Assembly (NCBI GenBank): GCA_031275815.1
Contig: JAISOF010000030.1
Span: forward strand, 1-64,000
From: Candidatus Nomurabacteria bacterium
GTDB lineage: Bacteria; Patescibacteriota; Saccharimonadia; Saccharimonadales; Saccharimonadaceae
DNA length: 64,000 nt
Direction: 5' to 3'
Both the position numbers and the translations under genes were made by a program. The notes under the pieces were generated by a model. It did no database searches. It was not told where the DNA came from and saw nothing but the letters and a program-made list of their open reading frames with translations. Of the stretch, positions 39,849 to 47,985 are shown one piece after another. How positions within the stretch are numbered: position 1 is the stretch's first letter; each line of letters opens with the position of its first letter.

Positions 39849-40466
39849 ATGACAAGCTTGCCAAAACGAAACGCGGAGAATGATTGGCTGATTACGCCGG
39901 AAAATGCGGCGCTCTTGGTGATTGATTATCAGCCGACGCAAATCAAAAGCGTCAAATCGCGCGATCACGACGAGTTGGTGAAAAATATTGTGGTGACGGC
40001 AAAACTGGCGAAGGCATTTGGTTTGCCGATTGTGCTATCAACAGTCAATGTGGCGACGACGCTGAACCAAGACACCGTTGCGCCGCTGAAAGAAGTTTTG
40101 GCGGATTTGCCGTCATACGACCGCACTTCAATTAACGCGTGGGAAGACCGCGAGTTTGTCGAGGCGGTGCGCGCGACCGGTCGCAAAAAACTGCTGATTG
40201 CGGCGCTCTGGACGGAAGCTTGCCTGACTTTTCCAACGCTGGACGCTTTGAAAGAGGGCTATGAAGTCTATCCAATTGTCGACGCCGTCGCCGGCACCAG
40301 CCAAGAAGCCCACGACGCCGCCCTGCGTCGCGTCGAGCAAGCCGGTGCCAGCCCAATTTCCTTTGCCCAATTGGCCTGCGAACTACAACGCGACTGGAAC
40401 CGCTCCGCCACCGAGCCAGCTTTCCTTGATATTATGCTGGAGGCGGGAAAGTTCACGGGCAGGTGA
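39849..40466 (+). CDS. Isochorismatase-like cysteine hydrolase
   Basis: A 205-aa protein: ENAALLVIDYQPTQIKSV (catalytic Asp near residue 28), a lysine in the mid-strand region, and ALWTEACLTFPTLDALKEGYEVYPIVDA with the catalytic Cys near residue 123. The family includes nicotinamidases and other amidases; the substrate pocket residues do not allow a firm choice. It is preceded by AAAAAAAGGAGG, a strong ribosome-binding site. Confidence 0.88.
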   Translation: MTSLPKRNAENDWLITPENAALLVIDYQPTQIKSVKSRDHDELVKNIVVTAKLAKAFGLPIVLSTVNVATTLNQDTVAPLKEVLADLPSYDRTSINAWEDREFVEAVRATGRKKLLIAALWTEACLTFPTLDALKEGYEVYPIVDAVAGTSQEAHDAALRRVEQAGASPISFAQLACELQRDWNRSATEPAFLDIMLEAGKFTGR

Positions 40467-40509
40467 TTAAAAGTTTGTGAATTTTCCAAACTGTGCTAAA
40501 ATATAAGTC

Positions 40510-40572
40510 ATGAAAAGATATTTTTACGTTTCCGATTTGCCGACCCCGACGCCGCTGTGGCAGCTGGGGTAA
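40510..40572 (+). CDS. Proline-codon leader peptide, 20 aa
   Basis: The 20-codon frame reads MKRYFYVSDLPTPTPLWQLG. Three CCG proline codons stand at 40540, 40546 and 40552, next to the first arm of a hairpin. A TAAAAT (40497-40502), with TTGTGA 16 nt upstream, lies 7 nt before the ATG. The peptide itself is unlikely to have a role; its translation would read charged tRNA-Pro. It is inferred from position, codons and the overlapping attenuator. Confidence 0.65.
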   Translation: MKRYFYVSDLPTPTPLWQLG

Positions 40573-40635
40573 GTTAACTTGTTTATAAAAATAACCAACC
40601 GAGTCAAATTGACGCCCCAGCCGAGGGGCGTTTTT
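40543..40635 (+). promoter_or_regulatory. Attenuator: mutually exclusive hairpins and terminator
   Basis: Four pairing regions are visible. Region 1 (ACCCC at 40543-40547 plus GCTG at 40554-40557) pairs with region 2 (CAGC at 40561-40564 plus GGGGT at 40566-40570). Region 2 (GCTGGGG, 40563-40569) pairs alternatively with region 3 (CCCCAGC, 40615-40621). Region 3 (ACGCCCC, 40612-40618) pairs with region 4 (GGGGCGT, 40625-40631), followed by TTTT, as an intrinsic terminator. A ribosome stalled at the proline codons would cover region 1 and let 2:3 form, permitting read-through. This is the classic amino-acid attenuation layout. Confidence 0.7.
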
Positions 40636-40676
40636 GCGTCTGATTTGCTGATTTGGCTTGGGATGGAGAAATGGAA

Positions 40677-41471
40677 ATGAATTATCAATTGGAAAAATTG
40701 TTGGTTGTGAAAGTTGGCACAAATGTCTTGACCGACACGACCGGCGAGCTTGACAAACTTGACGAGAAATCTTTTAGGAATATTGGTCGCGAAGTGCGAG
40801 GTTTGACGAGTCGAAAAACCAGTGTGATTTTGGTATCGTCCGGTGCTATCACAGCGGGCGCGCTGCTCGATAAAAAGCGTCGGTGCGATGTGACAAACGA
40901 CGTGGATTTACAACGCTATGCGGTGCGTGGCTGGCCGAAAATTGTTCGTGCGTGGGAGTCGGCGATTGGCGCGGGGCGGGTGAGTTCGACTTTGCTGACC
41001 AAGCACGAAATCCATCTTGGCTCTACGCGGACTAAGGCGCTTGGTTTGGTTGGTTGTTGTTTGGCGCACGGAGACGTCTTCGTGGTCAATGAAAACGATG
41101 CGATTTGCGACGACGAAATCAAGTTTGGCGACAACGACAGGCTGGCGGCGGAGTTGGCGGTAGCCTGTGCAACGACGGGGCTTTTTCAGTCGGTCAAATT
41201 AGTGCTGCTGACGAACAAAAACGGCTTGAACATGGTGGCGGATGACGACGCCACCATCATCCGAACCGTGACCGACATCGCAGCCGTCGAAAAATACGCC
41301 GGTCGAACCGTCGACAAACGTAGCCGCGGTGGCATGATTACGAAAATCCAAGCCGCCAAAATTGCCACCAAAGTTGGCATTGAAACCTGCATTGCCAACG
41401 GTCGGAAACGGGATGTTGTAGCGCGAACTTTGCGCGGGGAGATTGGCACGCGGTTTGTGGTGGACGTGTAA
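40677..41471 (+). CDS. Glutamate 5-kinase-like amino acid kinase
   Basis: A 264-aa amino-acid-kinase-fold protein. It starts LEKLLVVKVGTNVLTD, typical of ProB (KxGS/T phosphate loop). It continues with VILVSSGAITAGA, VNENDAICDDEIKFGDNDRLAAELA (the ProB N.ND..FGDND signature) and GTRFVVDV at the end. Glutamate 5-kinase makes gamma-glutamyl phosphate, the first step to proline. The C-terminal PUA domain of many ProB proteins is absent. Start 40677 is 8 nt after GGAG; the ATG at 40671 is too close. No proA or proC is nearby. The upstream proline attenuator fits a proline-related role. Confidence 0.8.
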   Translation: MNYQLEKLLVVKVGTNVLTDTTGELDKLDEKSFRNIGREVRGLTSRKTSVILVSSGAITAGALLDKKRRCDVTNDVDLQRYAVRGWPKIVRAWESAIGAGRVSSTLLTKHEIHLGSTRTKALGLVGCCLAHGDVFVVNENDAICDDEIKFGDNDRLAAELAVACATTGLFQSVKLVLLTNKNGLNMVADDDATIIRTVTDIAAVEKYAGRTVDKRSRGGMITKIQAAKIATKVGIETCIANGRKRDVVARTLRGEIGTRFVVDV

Positions 41472-42609: not shown

Positions 42610-43638
42610 TCATTTTTTGTCTTCGGGGACTTTAGTTTTTGAAACTTCGTGGGCAACTTTCCAAAAATCTGTTTTGCCGGCGTGTCGTCCATAGAGCAAA
42701 AAATCAACTTTGGGCGGGCGACCGCCGTTTGGTTTGCCGGAAAGTGGGATCAGGAATTTGCGTTGTCTGCCAAGGCAATAATATTTCAGCGATAAAACAA
42801 TGCCGTGGAGTAATTCCTGGTTAGTCACTATCTGGCGGGTTAGTGGCACGTAACATTTTTCGTTAAGAAAATCTTTGGCAATAGCAATGCCGGAAGTCAG
42901 ATATTGGTCAGGTTTTTTGTGGATCCACTCGGACAATAGAATCTGATCAAACAATCCACGATACGGCTCCATCAAATCATAAATCAGGGACGGGTAATCG
43001 GTCGGTGTATGCAAAAAACCGTGATAGGGCGACAGGTGATGATAGCAGCACCAACGTAAAATAATGCCACTGATGAACTTGCTGTGAGCGTCGAGTGCTA
43101 TTGCCGCTGGATTTTTGGCCCGACGCGTCCATTCTGGGTGACCCAATTTAGTGAAAAACTCACGCCAATATTTTTTGGCGTGTTTGGCCTCGATATTACG
43201 CAAGCTATCCACTGAGGCAAAGGGCGGAAGTTTTTCGGGCGGCACCAGCCAACTCATATTTTTCATTTTTGCCGTGAGTAATTGACGAGCGCAGTGAGTG
43301 ACTCGGCGAGAGCTGGAACGGACTTTGATTTGGGCTGAGATGGTGTCGTCGGGGTCGGGCCGTTCGCCGCCAATGATATAAATCGGTTGCGTCATATTGC
43401 GGCGATGGATGATGATCGGAATACCGGCCCGAGCGATTTTGTCCAGATATGTCACCGATAAATTATAATCGCTGTCACCATAAATCATAATCGACTGGAT
43501 GGTATCGAGCGAGGAGGTTTCTGCGCCACCGTTATATTTGAATTCAAAAAATCCTTTGCTGGTTTCTTGGATTGATTGTAGGTAGGGTAACCACATTGGC
43601 ACACGTTTGGATTTGGTAGTTTTGATTTTTTCTGTCAT
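42610..43638 (-). CDS. cas1: Cas1 integrase of a type V-D system
   Basis: A 342-aa Cas1. The three metal ligands are all present: E150 in RNIEAKHAKKYWREFF, H210 in SPYHGFLHTPTDYP and D221 in SLIYDLMEPYR. The N-terminal beta domain contains the characteristic DTIQSIMIYGDSDYNLSVTYL. No cas2 is encoded at the locus. In the related V-C system Cas1 works without Cas2 and integrates very short spacers, which matches the 18-19-nt spacers here. It lies on the opposite strand to the array and effector, reading away from them. The ATG is 6 nt after TACAAT (43650-43645); a TTG at 43656 is less likely. Confidence 0.93.
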   Translation of the reverse strand: MTEKIKTTKSKRVPMWLPYLQSIQETSKGFFEFKYNGGAETSSLDTIQSIMIYGDSDYNLSVTYLDKIARAGIPIIIHRRNMTQPIYIIGGERPDPDDTISAQIKVRSSSRRVTHCARQLLTAKMKNMSWLVPPEKLPPFASVDSLRNIEAKHAKKYWREFFTKLGHPEWTRRAKNPAAIALDAHSKFISGIILRWCCYHHLSPYHGFLHTPTDYPSLIYDLMEPYRGLFDQILLSEWIHKKPDQYLTSGIAIAKDFLNEKCYVPLTRQIVTNQELLHGIVLSLKYYCLGRQRKFLIPLSGKPNGGRPPKVDFLLYGRHAGKTDFWKVAHEVSKTKVPEDKK

Positions 43639-43777
43639 AATGATATTGTATACCAAATTGTTGAAAGATCATACATATCATACATAAAATGCAAAAAATG
43701 CTTGAATTGCAGATGTTTTGTGCTATGATAATTGGTAGTTGATCGTACATTTACAATCTGTTATTTTAGAAGGAACT
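43639..43777 (+). promoter_or_regulatory. CRISPR leader and array promoter
   Basis: AT-rich leader between cas1 and the first repeat. TTGAAT (43702-43707), a 16-nt spacer and TATGAT (43724-43729) would start the pre-crRNA near 43736. The opposite end of the array carries a degenerate repeat, which supports this side as the leader end. The cas1 promoter lies at the left edge on the minus strand. Confidence 0.65.
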
Positions 43778-44628
43778 CCTCGAAAAATAGAGGGGAAAAG
43801 GCTTTTCGGCCGGTGGTAAACCTCGAAAAATAGAGGGGAAAAGGCAGCGCAATTTCGTAACTCACCTCGAAAAATAGAGGGGAAAAGGCTCGGAGTGGGG
43901 TTGGATTTCCTCGAAAAATAGAGGGGAAAAGGCTCACTCCATTCATACTCACCTCGAAAAATAGAGGGGAAAAGGCGGCAACCACGCCCTATCAGCCTCG
44001 AAAAATAGAGGGGAAAAGGCAAAGTCTCATCGTAGATTTCCTCGAAAAATAGAGGGGAAAAGGCACTACAACAATAGCGACACCTCGAAAAATAGAGGGG
44101 AAAAGGCAACTCTATTGTTAGTTTTCCTCGAAAAATAGAGGGGAAAAGGCCGAGAATGGCAAATATGACCTCGAAAAATAGAGGGGAAAAGGCATTTCTA
44201 GGTCTTCCTTCCCTCGAAAAATAGAGGGGAAAAGGCTCAGAGGCTTGGGTTTATGCCTCGAAAAATAGAGGGGAAAAGGCAGGACGACTGAACAAAAACC
44301 TCGAAAAATAGAGGGGAAAAGGCATTTTTTTAAAAAAGCTCGCCTCGAAAAATAGAGGGGAAAAGGCAGTCCTTTCCTATCGCCAACCTCGAAAAATAGA
44401 GGGGAAAAGGCTCATGAATCTGTCGTCGTCCTCGAAAAATAGAGGGGAAAAGGCTACTGCGTGCTGCATTTAGCCTCGAAAAATAGAGGGGAAAAGGCTT
44501 CCATTAAGTAATTTACCCTCGAAAAATAGAGGGGAAAAGGCACGTTACCCGGAGTCGTCGCCTCGAAAAATAGAGGGGAAAAGGCCAGTCGCACACACAA
44601 ACTCCTCGAAAAATAGAGGGGAAATGCC
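43778..44628 (+). CRISPR. Type V-D CRISPR array, 20 repeats and 19 spacers
   Basis: The repeat is 25 nt: CCTCGAAAAATAGAGG followed by GGAAAAGGC. Repeats 1-19 are identical by eye and the last (44604-44628) is degenerate, ending AAATGCC instead of AAAAGGC. Spacers are 18 or 19 nt (for example 43803-43820 and 43846-43864). CCTC and GAGG within the repeat can form a small stem before the conserved 3' AAAAGGC. Length and the 3' AAAGGC agree with CasY/Cas12d repeats I know, and the very short spacers are a hallmark of V-C/V-D arrays. No spacer was matched by eye to this window. Confidence 0.98.
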
Positions 44629-44760
44629 AAAATCTCTATTAAGCAAATCTAGATTAAGTTTCAGATGGTTGAAAGAAATCATCTTAGCCTTCCTTACCTA
44701 GTCCATTCTTATTGGATGGTCCTCTAGAATAACGGATTGTGAACGTACTTTCATTTAAGC
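44629..44760 (+). ncRNA. Candidate scoutRNA region between array and cas12d
   Basis: Cas12c and Cas12d use a short-complementarity untranslated RNA (scoutRNA) instead of a tracrRNA. This non-coding gap has a GCCTT at 44687-44691, complementary to the AAGGC 3' end of the repeat. A hairpin lies just before it (AGATG 44663-44667 / CATCT 44680-44684), a TCCA/TGGA hairpin just after it (44702-44716), and a second short match CCTCT at 44721-44725. Matches of five bases can occur by chance. The strand and ends of any RNA are not determined. Confidence 0.4.
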
Positions 44761-44772
44761 GGAAAGGGACAT

Positions 44773-47700
44773 ATGAAGCAAAAGCAAAGAGCAGGGAAGC
44801 GAGGATATCGTTTGCACGATGAGCGTATTGCGTATAGCGGCGGTGAGGGTTCAATGCGTTCAATTAAGTATGAGCTTGTGGGGGCGGATAAGCAGACGAT
44901 TACTGATGCAGTTGTCCACGATAATCTGCGGCTTTATGGTGGCCTAAACTTAAATGACTATCTAACTAGCGAGGAAACAGCGAGCCTGCTTGATTTTTGG
45001 CTTACGGCTTTATCGCTTGGTTTTATGTTTTCAAATCAAAATAGCATTGAACCTGAATTTTTGAAATATCTTGGTAAGCCGACTGCTTACGAAAAAGTCC
45101 ACAATCTCTTAGACGAAAACTTAAAGGAGATCATTGACGTAGATAAATTTGGAGAGTTTATTTATAAAAGTAACCGTGGTCTTGAGAAAAAGAATATCGA
45201 GCAGCGGAAAAAACTGATTTACAATTTGCTGAATAATAATGATGACTTAGCTAAAATTGAGAGCATTGCAGAAGATTTTGCAAAACAGCTAGATGAAGTT
45301 GAACAGTTTGTTGCCAAGCAGAGTGTGTTCGGTATTACGGCAGCGGAGTTGCCTGGACGCACACTGAGTCTCAGTTTTGCACTTGACCCAAACTTTGAAA
45401 TTATGAAAATTGAGGACCGTACCGAGTTTTTGGATAAAATAATTGACTTTTATAAATCAAAATGCGATGAAGCACAGACCAAACGATTTTTATGTATTGG
45501 TGATAATGGTAATTATTTTAATGGATTATTTGGAAATTTATATGAAAGTTTACGAGTGGGAAAGATTGACGAAATAGTTGATTTTCTAAGTGAAGTTTAT
45601 GAATTTGAGAATAGAAATGAAATTAAAAAACGGCTGGAGATGTTGAAAGAATTAGTTGATGAAATTGACGAGCCAAAGTTGGTCAACAAATGGAGTGATT
45701 ATCGTAGTGATTTCAACGGCACGATTGAGAGTTGGTATTCTAACCGTGAGAGCAAACAAAAGGAAACGGTCGAGCAATTGAAGGAGTGTCGAAAGCTGCT
45801 TAGCGAAATTTATGATGAGTTGCCCAAAGATTGTGAAATTCGTGAGGGGGTTTTATGTGAGACGATTGAGTTTATTGACACGGCGAGTGTAAAAATTGAC
45901 CGTGTGTTTACTAATGAGTTAGATAGCTATTTGGCGACTCTCAGGAGTGATTTGAATGAGTATATTCAACAAAATAATGAGGTGGAATTGCCAAAAGATT
46001 GTCAGAAAAAGTTATCTAAACATATCCAATCCAGCCCGCTGTTTTTTGGCGAAAATAAATTAGCATTGTGGCAGCAGTTGAAAAGTTTAAAGAGTTTGAT
46101 TCGTAAAGAAGTTGAGAAATTGGAAGAGATTTTGCGGGGGAGTTTTGACGACACCGAGATTAATGACAAGCAAGTTGATATGTTAGCGCAGCTTTATAAC
46201 CGGATCAAGACCGGCGGTAATAGCGAGGTTATCGCGGTTCTTCTTGCTGTCGAAAAAGAGTTGAAGGTGAAATTTTCCGACCGCACCGATCGGGCAACTT
46301 TTAATTTGACGGGCTATGAACGAGGGAATTACAAAAAGCTAAACATTCCCCAGAGAATCAAAGTTAGCCAGTTGCGTAAACTTACGAAGCTCGACCAGCT
46401 GTACGAAAAAGTCAAAAATGCGCCGCAAAATAATTTCGTTTTACGTGACGTGACCCAGCTTTCCAAAATTGTGGCAGCGGCTGTGGTGCGTGGCAGCGAC
46501 AGGGAGCGTGAGGTTAATTTGATTCATTCTAATTTGAACGGTTACGCTAATTTAATCAGTAAAACGGAGTTTATAAGTCGTTATCCAGTTCAGGCGGCTA
46601 ATGGCATGCAGAACCTATTGGCGCATAACGGAGCGGGGCGGTATTTTTATAAGTTTGATGATAAAAAGTTTTCGAACATTGAAAAACAAGAATTGATTTT
46701 CGCTAAGCAGGGTAATAATTTTTCTGTTGATGATGGTGTTTGGACTAAGCAGCCACAAAATGTGCCAGCGCTGGCTGTGCAAAGTTCACGTTATCAAGTT
46801 CAGTTTTTGGATTGGTTTTTTGGTAAACATAGCAAGAAAAAATCTTGGCTATCAGCAGGCGGAAGTTTTACGATCGCCGAGAAGACTTGTCGAATTAACT
46901 GGGATGGCGAGGAGCCAAAAATTACAGATGAGCAGAAAGACAGGCTGTTTGTAAGTCAGCCGTTTACGCTCCACTCAAAAGAAAAGCGTTTGGTGGATGT
47001 GGAGAAAATTAAAAATCGCTATATTGGGGTTGATATCGGTGAGTATGGTTTGGCGTGGAGCTTGATAAAAATTAACGGTAATAAAGTCGAACAGTTAGAA
47101 AGTGGTTTCATCGCTGACAATCAACAACAAACTCTGAAAGCTGATGTGAAAAATCTGCGCGATCGACAAGTTCGGGCGACTTTCACTTCGCCAGATACGA
47201 AAATTGCACGGGTACGAGAGAGCTTGATCGGGCGTTACCGCAACTTACTGGAAGATTTGGCGATGCGAAAGAATGCACGGCTTAGTTTTGAGTATGAAGT
47301 TAGTGGTTTTGAAACGGGCGGTAATAGAATTAGTAAAGTTTATGATTCGATTAAACGTGGCAGTGTGGCTAAGGAAGATAATAAGTCAGAAAATAATCGA
47401 GCGTGGGGTAAGCTGACTAACGACGAGTTTTCGTGGAAGGCTTTCGAAACAACCGCTGCTGGCACTTCGCAGTTTTGTACCAAATGCAAAAAGTGGAGTT
47501 CGTTGGCGGTTACCGATACGGTTGATTATCAATTGGAAGAATACGAAGACGGATTATTCAAAGTGAAATTAGACGATGGTGAATATGTGCGAGTTTTTGC
47601 GCCAAAAAATAAAGTTGGAGACAAGGTTAAGGGCAAGGATGGCCTAAAGGGAATGATCTATAAAGCCATGCGGCCAAATATGGATGGTGCGGGCATGAAA

Positions 47701-47985
47701 ATCGTGGAGCACAAATTGGGTTCAGCGAAATTCGCAGAATTACAGAAAGATTTTGGCCCAAATACTAAGCGAGGTAATATCGGCATTTATATTTGCCCGT
47801 ATATTGACTGCCAACATATAGCTGATGCTGATTTGCAGGCGGCATTTAATATAGCGGTACGTGGATATTTGAAAGACGCTAATCCCGGGCGTGCCAAAAA
47901 GTCTAAAGAAGATAGAATTTCAGCCAAGTGGTGTTGTGATGAAGAGTCCAAGCTGGAGTTTGAAGCTGTCGATATAAAGATTTGA
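44773..47985 (+). CDS. cas12d: Cas12d (CasY) effector nuclease, compact
   Basis: A 1,070-aa single-protein type V effector. The C-terminal RuvC nuclease is complete: RuvC-I YIGVDIGEYGLAWSL (D754), RuvC-II LSFEYEVSGFETGG (E840 or E842) and RuvC-III DADLQAAFNIAVRGY (D1020). A zinc ribbon is split by an insertion: C902 and C905 in FCTKCKKWSS, C1008 and C1013 in CPYIDCQH. The first 700 residues are helix-rich with no other named domain, as expected for REC lobes. Repeat type, short spacers, Cas1-only adaptation and protein size point to V-D; known CasY proteins are mostly longer. The start at 44773 follows GGAAAGGGA. The protein is expected to be RNA-guided and to cut double-stranded DNA. Confidence 0.9.
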   Translation: MKQKQRAGKRGYRLHDERIAYSGGEGSMRSIKYELVGADKQTITDAVVHDNLRLYGGLNLNDYLTSEETASLLDFWLTALSLGFMFSNQNSIEPEFLKYLGKPTAYEKVHNLLDENLKEIIDVDKFGEFIYKSNRGLEKKNIEQRKKLIYNLLNNNDDLAKIESIAEDFAKQLDEVEQFVAKQSVFGITAAELPGRTLSLSFALDPNFEIMKIEDRTEFLDKIIDFYKSKCDEAQTKRFLCIGDNGNYFNGLFGNLYESLRVGKIDEIVDFLSEVYEFENRNEIKKRLEMLKELVDEIDEPKLVNKWSDYRSDFNGTIESWYSNRESKQKETVEQLKECRKLLSEIYDELPKDCEIREGVLCETIEFIDTASVKIDRVFTNELDSYLATLRSDLNEYIQQNNEVELPKDCQKKLSKHIQSSPLFFGENKLALWQQLKSLKSLIRKEVEKLEEILRGSFDDTEINDKQVDMLAQLYNRIKTGGNSEVIAVLLAVEKELKVKFSDRTDRATFNLTGYERGNYKKLNIPQRIKVSQLRKLTKLDQLYEKVKNAPQNNFVLRDVTQLSKIVAAAVVRGSDREREVNLIHSNLNGYANLISKTEFISRYPVQAANGMQNLLAHNGAGRYFYKFDDKKFSNIEKQELIFAKQGNNFSVDDGVWTKQPQNVPALAVQSSRYQVQFLDWFFGKHSKKKSWLSAGGSFTIAEKTCRINWDGEEPKITDEQKDRLFVSQPFTLHSKEKRLVDVEKIKNRYIGVDIGEYGLAWSLIKINGNKVEQLESGFIADNQQQTLKADVKNLRDRQVRATFTSPDTKIARVRESLIGRYRNLLEDLAMRKNARLSFEYEVSGFETGGNRISKVYDSIKRGSVAKEDNKSENNRAWGKLTNDEFSWKAFETTAAGTSQFCTKCKKWSSLAVTDTVDYQLEEYEDGLFKVKLDDGEYVRVFAPKNKVGDKVKGKDGLKGMIYKAMRPNMDGAGMKIVEHKLGSAKFAELQKDFGPNTKRGNIGIYICPYIDCQHIADADLQAAFNIAVRGYLKDANPGRAKKSKEDRISAKWCCDEESKLEFEAVDIKI

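Follow-up and report, generated by a model that had tools for sequence, protein, structure and literature searches.

What does a short proline-rich open reading frame (ORF), followed by an intrinsic terminator, control in a member of the Saccharibacteria, and which signal would it read? The window, a stretch of 64,000 nucleotides, had been described in an initial annotation as carrying a proline-codon attenuator in front of a glutamate-5-kinase-like gene, hereafter the kinase gene. Exact matches to the TM7 probes TM7-580F and TM7-905/910 occur in the 16S of the window genome, while TM7-305/314 and TM7-1177 have none there; it most likely belongs to the Saccharibacteria (class Saccharimonadia). 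Patescibacteria get by with strongly reduced genomes, few regulators are known from them, and their cells are mostly host-dependent. In this study, we hold with considerable confidence that the leader is a ribosome-mediated transcription attenuator sensing proline-charged tRNA. Sequence comparison shows the arrangement to be real and conserved, proline-tRNA sensing being its most likely function.

Leader ORF, hairpins and folding in the window

Direct reading of the sequence places a leader ORF of 20 codons, encoding MKRYFYVSDLPTPTPLWQLG and followed by a stop codon, ahead of the kinase gene, and its three CCG codons lie where the initial annotation had listed them (Table 1). Attenuators of the trp and his type are marked by a short ORF that contains codons of the amino acid they sense; here such an ORF is present and conserved, its translation being predicted. 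The -10 box TAAAAT of the putative promoter occupies 40497-40502 and its end lies 7 nt before the leader ATG. Directly upstream on the same strand is a gene for an isochorismatase-family hydrolase (39849-40466; YcaC-like, 142 bits, below the cut-off), and on the other side a Type V-D CRISPR locus (42610-47985) comprises Cas1 on the minus strand (42610-43656), a Cas12d/CasY protein with an NF033951 match of 1014.7 bits (44773-47985), and an array at about 43777-44625 in which cctcgaaaaatagaggggaaaaggc is repeated.

Table 1. Features of the leader and of the kinase gene, in positions of the window.
Feature	Position	Strand	Basis
Putative promoter, TTGTGA and TAAAAT spaced by 16 nt, with TG ahead of the -10 box	40475..40502	+	Consensus scan
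Leader ORF MKRYFYVSDLPTPTPLWQLG and stop codon (ATG 40510, TAA 40570-40572), predicted leaderless or nearly so	40510..40572	+	Sequence; Pro-rich ORFs at orthologous loci
Three CCG proline codons, putative control codons (40540, 40546, 40552), overlapping arm 1	40540..40554	+	Sequence; Pro conserved in relatives
Hairpin 1:2, possibly the protector (ACCCC paired to GGGGT, GCC/GGC inside); weak in the window genome	40542..40570	+	MFE fold
Arm 2, GCTGGGG	40563..40569	+	Pairing with arm 3, covariation among relatives
Arm 3, CCCCAGC, forming the antiterminator with arm 2	40615..40621	+	Folding, covariation
Intrinsic terminator 3:4, GACGCCCC AGCCGA GGGGCGTT then T run	40611..40637	+	Script search and sequence
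Amino-acid kinase resembling ProB, an orphan; made up of an AAK domain alone, PUA lacking; ATGs in frame at 40671 and 40677	40671..41471	+	Pfam, TIGR01027, PDB

The initial annotation had proposed a set of three alternative hairpins, 1:2, 2:3 and 3:4, ending in an intrinsic terminator. Arms 2 and 3 are indeed fully complementary, and the terminator stem, which takes in the CCCC of arm 3, is present as described together with its T run. Pairing, folding and 2:3 covariation agree that the antiterminator (2:3) and the terminator (3:4) exclude each other, and an intrinsic terminator with a U run ahead of the gene occurs in the window and in most kinase leaders. The 1:2 hairpin is the weakest part of the set. 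When the ribosome footprint was masked during equilibrium folding at successive transcript ends, a ribosome at Pro11 or Pro13 gave a P(2:3) of at least 0.96, and one at Pro15 a P(2:3) of 0.69, up to a transcript end of 40626, while a ribosome at the stop codon gave a P(2:3) of 0 and a P(3:4) of 1 once arm 4 was out. With no ribosome and before arm 4 is made, equilibrium folding prefers 2:3 over 1:2, so that a protector hairpin is poorly supported in the window genome; it is clearer and stronger at two related loci, L053 and L055. Once the full terminator has been made, equilibrium prefers 3:4 also for ribosomes stalled at Pro13 and Pro15, thus read-through would depend on kinetics and the antiterminator would have to form first. 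Classical attenuators likewise depend on kinetics for read-through.

The folding energy of the leader alone is ordinary (z -1.22), thus the case rests on comparison. An Rfam search gave no family match in the region at gathering score, the matches in the window being tRNAs elsewhere, and a riboswitch or T-box was set aside on this result.

Proline leaders and paired arms among relatives

The search of whole genomes recovered the kinase from 6 of 61 close relatives, from 35 of 393 genomes in the class and, with a more stringent cut-off, from 16 of 394 in the family; in the named GTDB contigs only distant ProB homologues (28-38% identity) were found. Several of the loci searched lie on incomplete MAG contigs. 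Reading of the upstream regions revealed Pro-bearing leader ORFs before the kinase at 14 loci, and they differ in sequence, for instance MIKFRFSHFPTPRPIRQPR (L043), MISYMYSALPLPRPM (L044), MQAFTFLTPPAPTPTWQLGYVSE (L049), MNYSYQYTSSVLPRPLPI (L055), MVQYRFSALPAPLPI (L056), MSLAQKDYFNLPPAPICHRRLC (L065), MFKLQFSCIAPPSPR (L069) and, at a further orthologue, MQIFTSLTPPTPTPLRQLGYVSE. An upstream ATG ORF of 12-26 codons with at least three Pro, within 220 nt, was present at 13 of 29 kinase loci, as against a mean of 1.25 and a maximum of 4 in 200 dinucleotide-preserving shuffles. Pro is kept among relatives while other residues, the identity of the Pro codon (CCG, CCA, CCT and CCC all serve) and the arm sequences vary. 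The initial annotation had named conservation of Pro codons and pairing as the check on its reading, and loss of the Pro codons in relatives as a finding that would speak against it; Pro proved constant while arms 2 and 3 covary, and hairpins without the Pro codons are represented by at most one weak case, L068, which has a single Pro. The leader is not universal, two kinase homologues of about 50% identity (L051 and L052) being without it.

A distance between -10 box and leader ATG similar to that in the window is seen again in most relatives. Since the box ends 6-9 nt before the ATG in most loci, the message would start at or beside the start codon, and most of these leader ORFs are probably leaderless. 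Two loci that follow an ABC-transporter gene (L049 and L050) are exceptions to this spacing, and in L053 and L055 the best -10 box of the scan lies at another distance from the ATG. The script recognized no terminator in L044 and L049, and L044 is without a recognizable one.

Arms 2 and 3, anchored by eye, pair at 7/7 or 6/7 positions in 13/13 kinase loci, with pairs such as GCTGGGG/CCCCAGC, GTCGGGG/CCCCGAC, GTCGGAG/CTCCGAC, GCCGGGG/CCCCGGC, CGAGGTG/CACCTCG and CGGAGGC/GCCTCCG, and in the alignable set changes on both sides occur at 3/7 arm positions. In an automatic test of the 12 loci with a script-found terminator, helix scores averaged 19.3 for own partners versus 14.3 for swapped partners, and the observed own-partner sum was reached in 0 of 5000 permutations, a figure that is no clean probability as the loci are related. 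Given how far the leader sequences diverge, permutation tests took the place of a covariance model.

It might be asked whether the leader is instead a nascent-chain arrest peptide, in which the peptide, with or without a small molecule, and not a lack of Pro-tRNA, stalls the ribosome. Pro residues are known to slow ribosomes, and L053, L055 and L063 have a close motif ending at the stop codon (LPRPLPI or LPRPLPM). However, only Pro is kept across groups, while spacing, neighbours and C-termini differ, no PPP run occurs in the kinase leaders, and Pro-rich leaders also precede proS, where a sensor of charging would be expected. An arrest peptide is therefore improbable in our judgement, and charged tRNA-Pro is likely to be the signal.

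The orphan kinase and its link to proS

For the start of the kinase gene, 40671 or 40677, behind the GGAG of 40663-40666, is more likely than the TTG at 40653. Its product belongs to the amino-acid kinase family (Pfam AA_kinase, 61.5 bits). The resemblance to proB, noted in the initial annotation, is upheld by likeness to the glutamate 5-kinase 4q1t in the PDB (E 5e-25) and by the catalytic and glutamate-binding motifs NEND, GDND and GGM-TK, which are all retained. Residue claims rest on the PDB comparison, a row for E. coli ProB in a further alignment having served for orientation only. The TIGR01027 (ProB) score of 135.3 bits lies below the curated cut-off of 186, and the framing as a proline-biosynthesis gene finds no support. 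Neither proA nor proC was found in the window genome (1.07 Mb, estimated 93% complete), with controls matched in 14/14 genomes, and proA was not found in 17 other kinase-bearing genomes; an assembly gap is unlikely to account for the same proA absence in 18 genomes. The organism apparently cannot make proline via the ProB-ProA-ProC route. The kinase is thus an orphan, and the label of a proline-biosynthesis attenuator would be wrong; a proline-biosynthesis operon was rejected on the same absences. Attenuation at Pro codons, on the other hand, survives from the initial annotation through the conserved Pro and the covarying arms. As a side observation, the kinase of L063 (1318-2034, reverse complement) looks degenerate, most ProB motifs being lost, with a well-preserved Pro leader before it and, close by on the opposite strand, a gene resembling proS.

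Many relatives have the kinase gene immediately ahead of a proS-like gene (L044, L045, L046, L056, L061, L065, L068 and L073), thus control of the aminoacyl-tRNA-synthetase type is the better parallel. The prolyl-tRNA-synthetase-like identity was assigned from reading the sequence, and as a query this protein matched 324 of 325 genomes. Leaders also occur before proS itself: a -10-proximal ATG ORF with at least two Pro was present in 20 of 124 Saccharibacteria proS regions, compared with a mean of 0.37 and a maximum of 3 in 100 shuffles, examples being MTTVIVPTFAPRMPACR, MASETIRVYPLVPPACR, MTIKRPGLLSPQFIPACR and MNHLSFLPCMAMPAPCRHIS. Most begin about 100-120 nt ahead of proS, and a short hairpin, often CCGG-nnnn-CCGG, ends most of them and adjoins the stop codon; in many, it is the end codons of PACR or PARR type that form this hairpin. 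Pro-rich, probably leaderless ORFs before proS were seen in L081, L082, L083, L084, L191, L193, L194 and others.

The CU-rich parts of the proS leaders complement the proS ribosome-binding region above swapped partners (2/5000 permutations), as in L194 (TTCTCCCTT/AAGGGAGAA) and L191 (ATCCTCT/AGAGGAT). This complementarity to the Shine-Dalgarno (SD) region suggests translational rather than transcriptional control, and the leaders directly before proS may resemble translational attenuators that sequester the SD, which we offer as a lead and not as a result. Could control then lie mainly in translation, through uncovering of the ribosome-binding site of the kinase gene or of proS, rather than in termination? 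A clear long terminator is mostly missing from the proS-direct leaders, which agrees with such a view, as does the complementarity; yet the window and most kinase leaders have a typical U-run terminator that shares arm 3, and we give the proposal little credence beside transcription attenuation. Least of all do we favour a constitutive upstream terminator behind a chance Pro-rich ORF, without regulation, for while the ordinary folding energy and the commonness of chance short ORFs would allow it, recurrence far above shuffles before both kinase and proS and the covariation of arms 2 and 3 make it very improbable.

The proS gene of the window organism itself (L203, on G000:C32) showed no Pro leader; it appears leaderless, with a -10-like box about 7 nt before its ATG. 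Outside the class, 21 proS loci gave no clear Pro leader and one weak candidate, L258. As a control, 30 pheS loci were searched and no Phe-rich leader was found, thus nothing suggests that synthetase genes at large are under leaderless attenuation.

The proposed switch and known systems

From these elements we infer the following course of events, in which transcription start, translation, stalling, read-through and the signal are all putative. RNA polymerase would start at or beside the leader ATG, and ribosomes would load on the 5' end of the RNA. With Pro-tRNA scarce, the ribosome would stall at the Pro codons and leave arm 2 free, which could pair with arm 3 once this is made, so that polymerase would read into the kinase gene. 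With Pro-tRNA plentiful, the ribosome would reach the stop codon and cover arm 2, and arms 3 and 4 would form the terminator. In relatives the same switch may control a kinase-proS operon, or a variant may act directly before proS; its wider role in Saccharibacteria would be to keep prolyl-tRNA synthetase, and with it the orphan kinase, in step with the proline available. Whether all this amounts to a proline regulon of leaderless peptides with two forms (terminator-based before the kinase, with or without proS, and SD-sequestering before proS), in which the kinase serves proline/tRNA-Pro homeostasis and not biosynthesis, seems to us evenly balanced. The attenuator suggests that proline supply is something Saccharibacteria cells monitor, and would link the orphan kinase gene to the use of proline in genomes in which no partner for proline synthesis turned up. 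An SD would not be needed, as the ORF that does the sensing seems to open directly at the 5' end of the RNA.

The initial annotation knew of no described proB case in this phylum, and in the open-licence literature we likewise found no leader-peptide attenuation in Saccharibacteria or Patescibacteria and no proB or proS attenuator; a review of Patescibacteria biology makes no mention of leaders or attenuation (PMC11665869). As far as the literature was found, this would be the first described leader-peptide attenuator in Patescibacteria.

Like the ribosome-mediated trp, his, leu and pheST attenuators of E. coli, the system has control codons in a leader ORF, a choice between 2:3 and 3:4 pairing, and an intrinsic terminator, and the pheST attenuator also has an aminoacyl-tRNA synthetase as its target. 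It differs from them in the amino acid, proline, in a leader ORF that is probably leaderless and without an SD, in the orphan kinase as target (proS in relatives), in the weak 1:2 hairpin and in the phylum. Leaderless short ORF attenuators with poly-Cys are known in mycobacteria, and here as there a leaderless ORF would use the residues of one amino acid as sensor. Their amino acid is cysteine. For the mycobacterial cys leaders, no conserved terminator hairpin was found (PMC1262725). The leaders of Salmonella mgtP and mgtA sense proline-charged tRNA, a Pro-rich short ORF raising transcription of mgtCBR and mgtA as Pro-tRNA charging drops (PMC3641672), which is the behaviour proposed here; unlike the present case, the targets are Mg2+ transport and virulence genes and not a gene of proline use, mgtP has an SD and three Pro codons in a row, and no sequence relation was seen. 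For control of aminoacyl-tRNA synthetase genes by leader peptides, the parallels are the actinobacterial trpS and leuS attenuators predicted in Streptomyces (PMC1262725) and, in bacilli, a his leader peptide ahead of hisS/hisZ genes; the authors of the latter work knew of no earlier case outside Proteobacteria and Actinobacteria (PMC2965389). These systems concern other amino acids and other phyla, and the word proline is absent from both papers. Beside them, the surprise of the present locus is its phylum, its probable leaderless sensor ORF, its orphan target and the link to proS.
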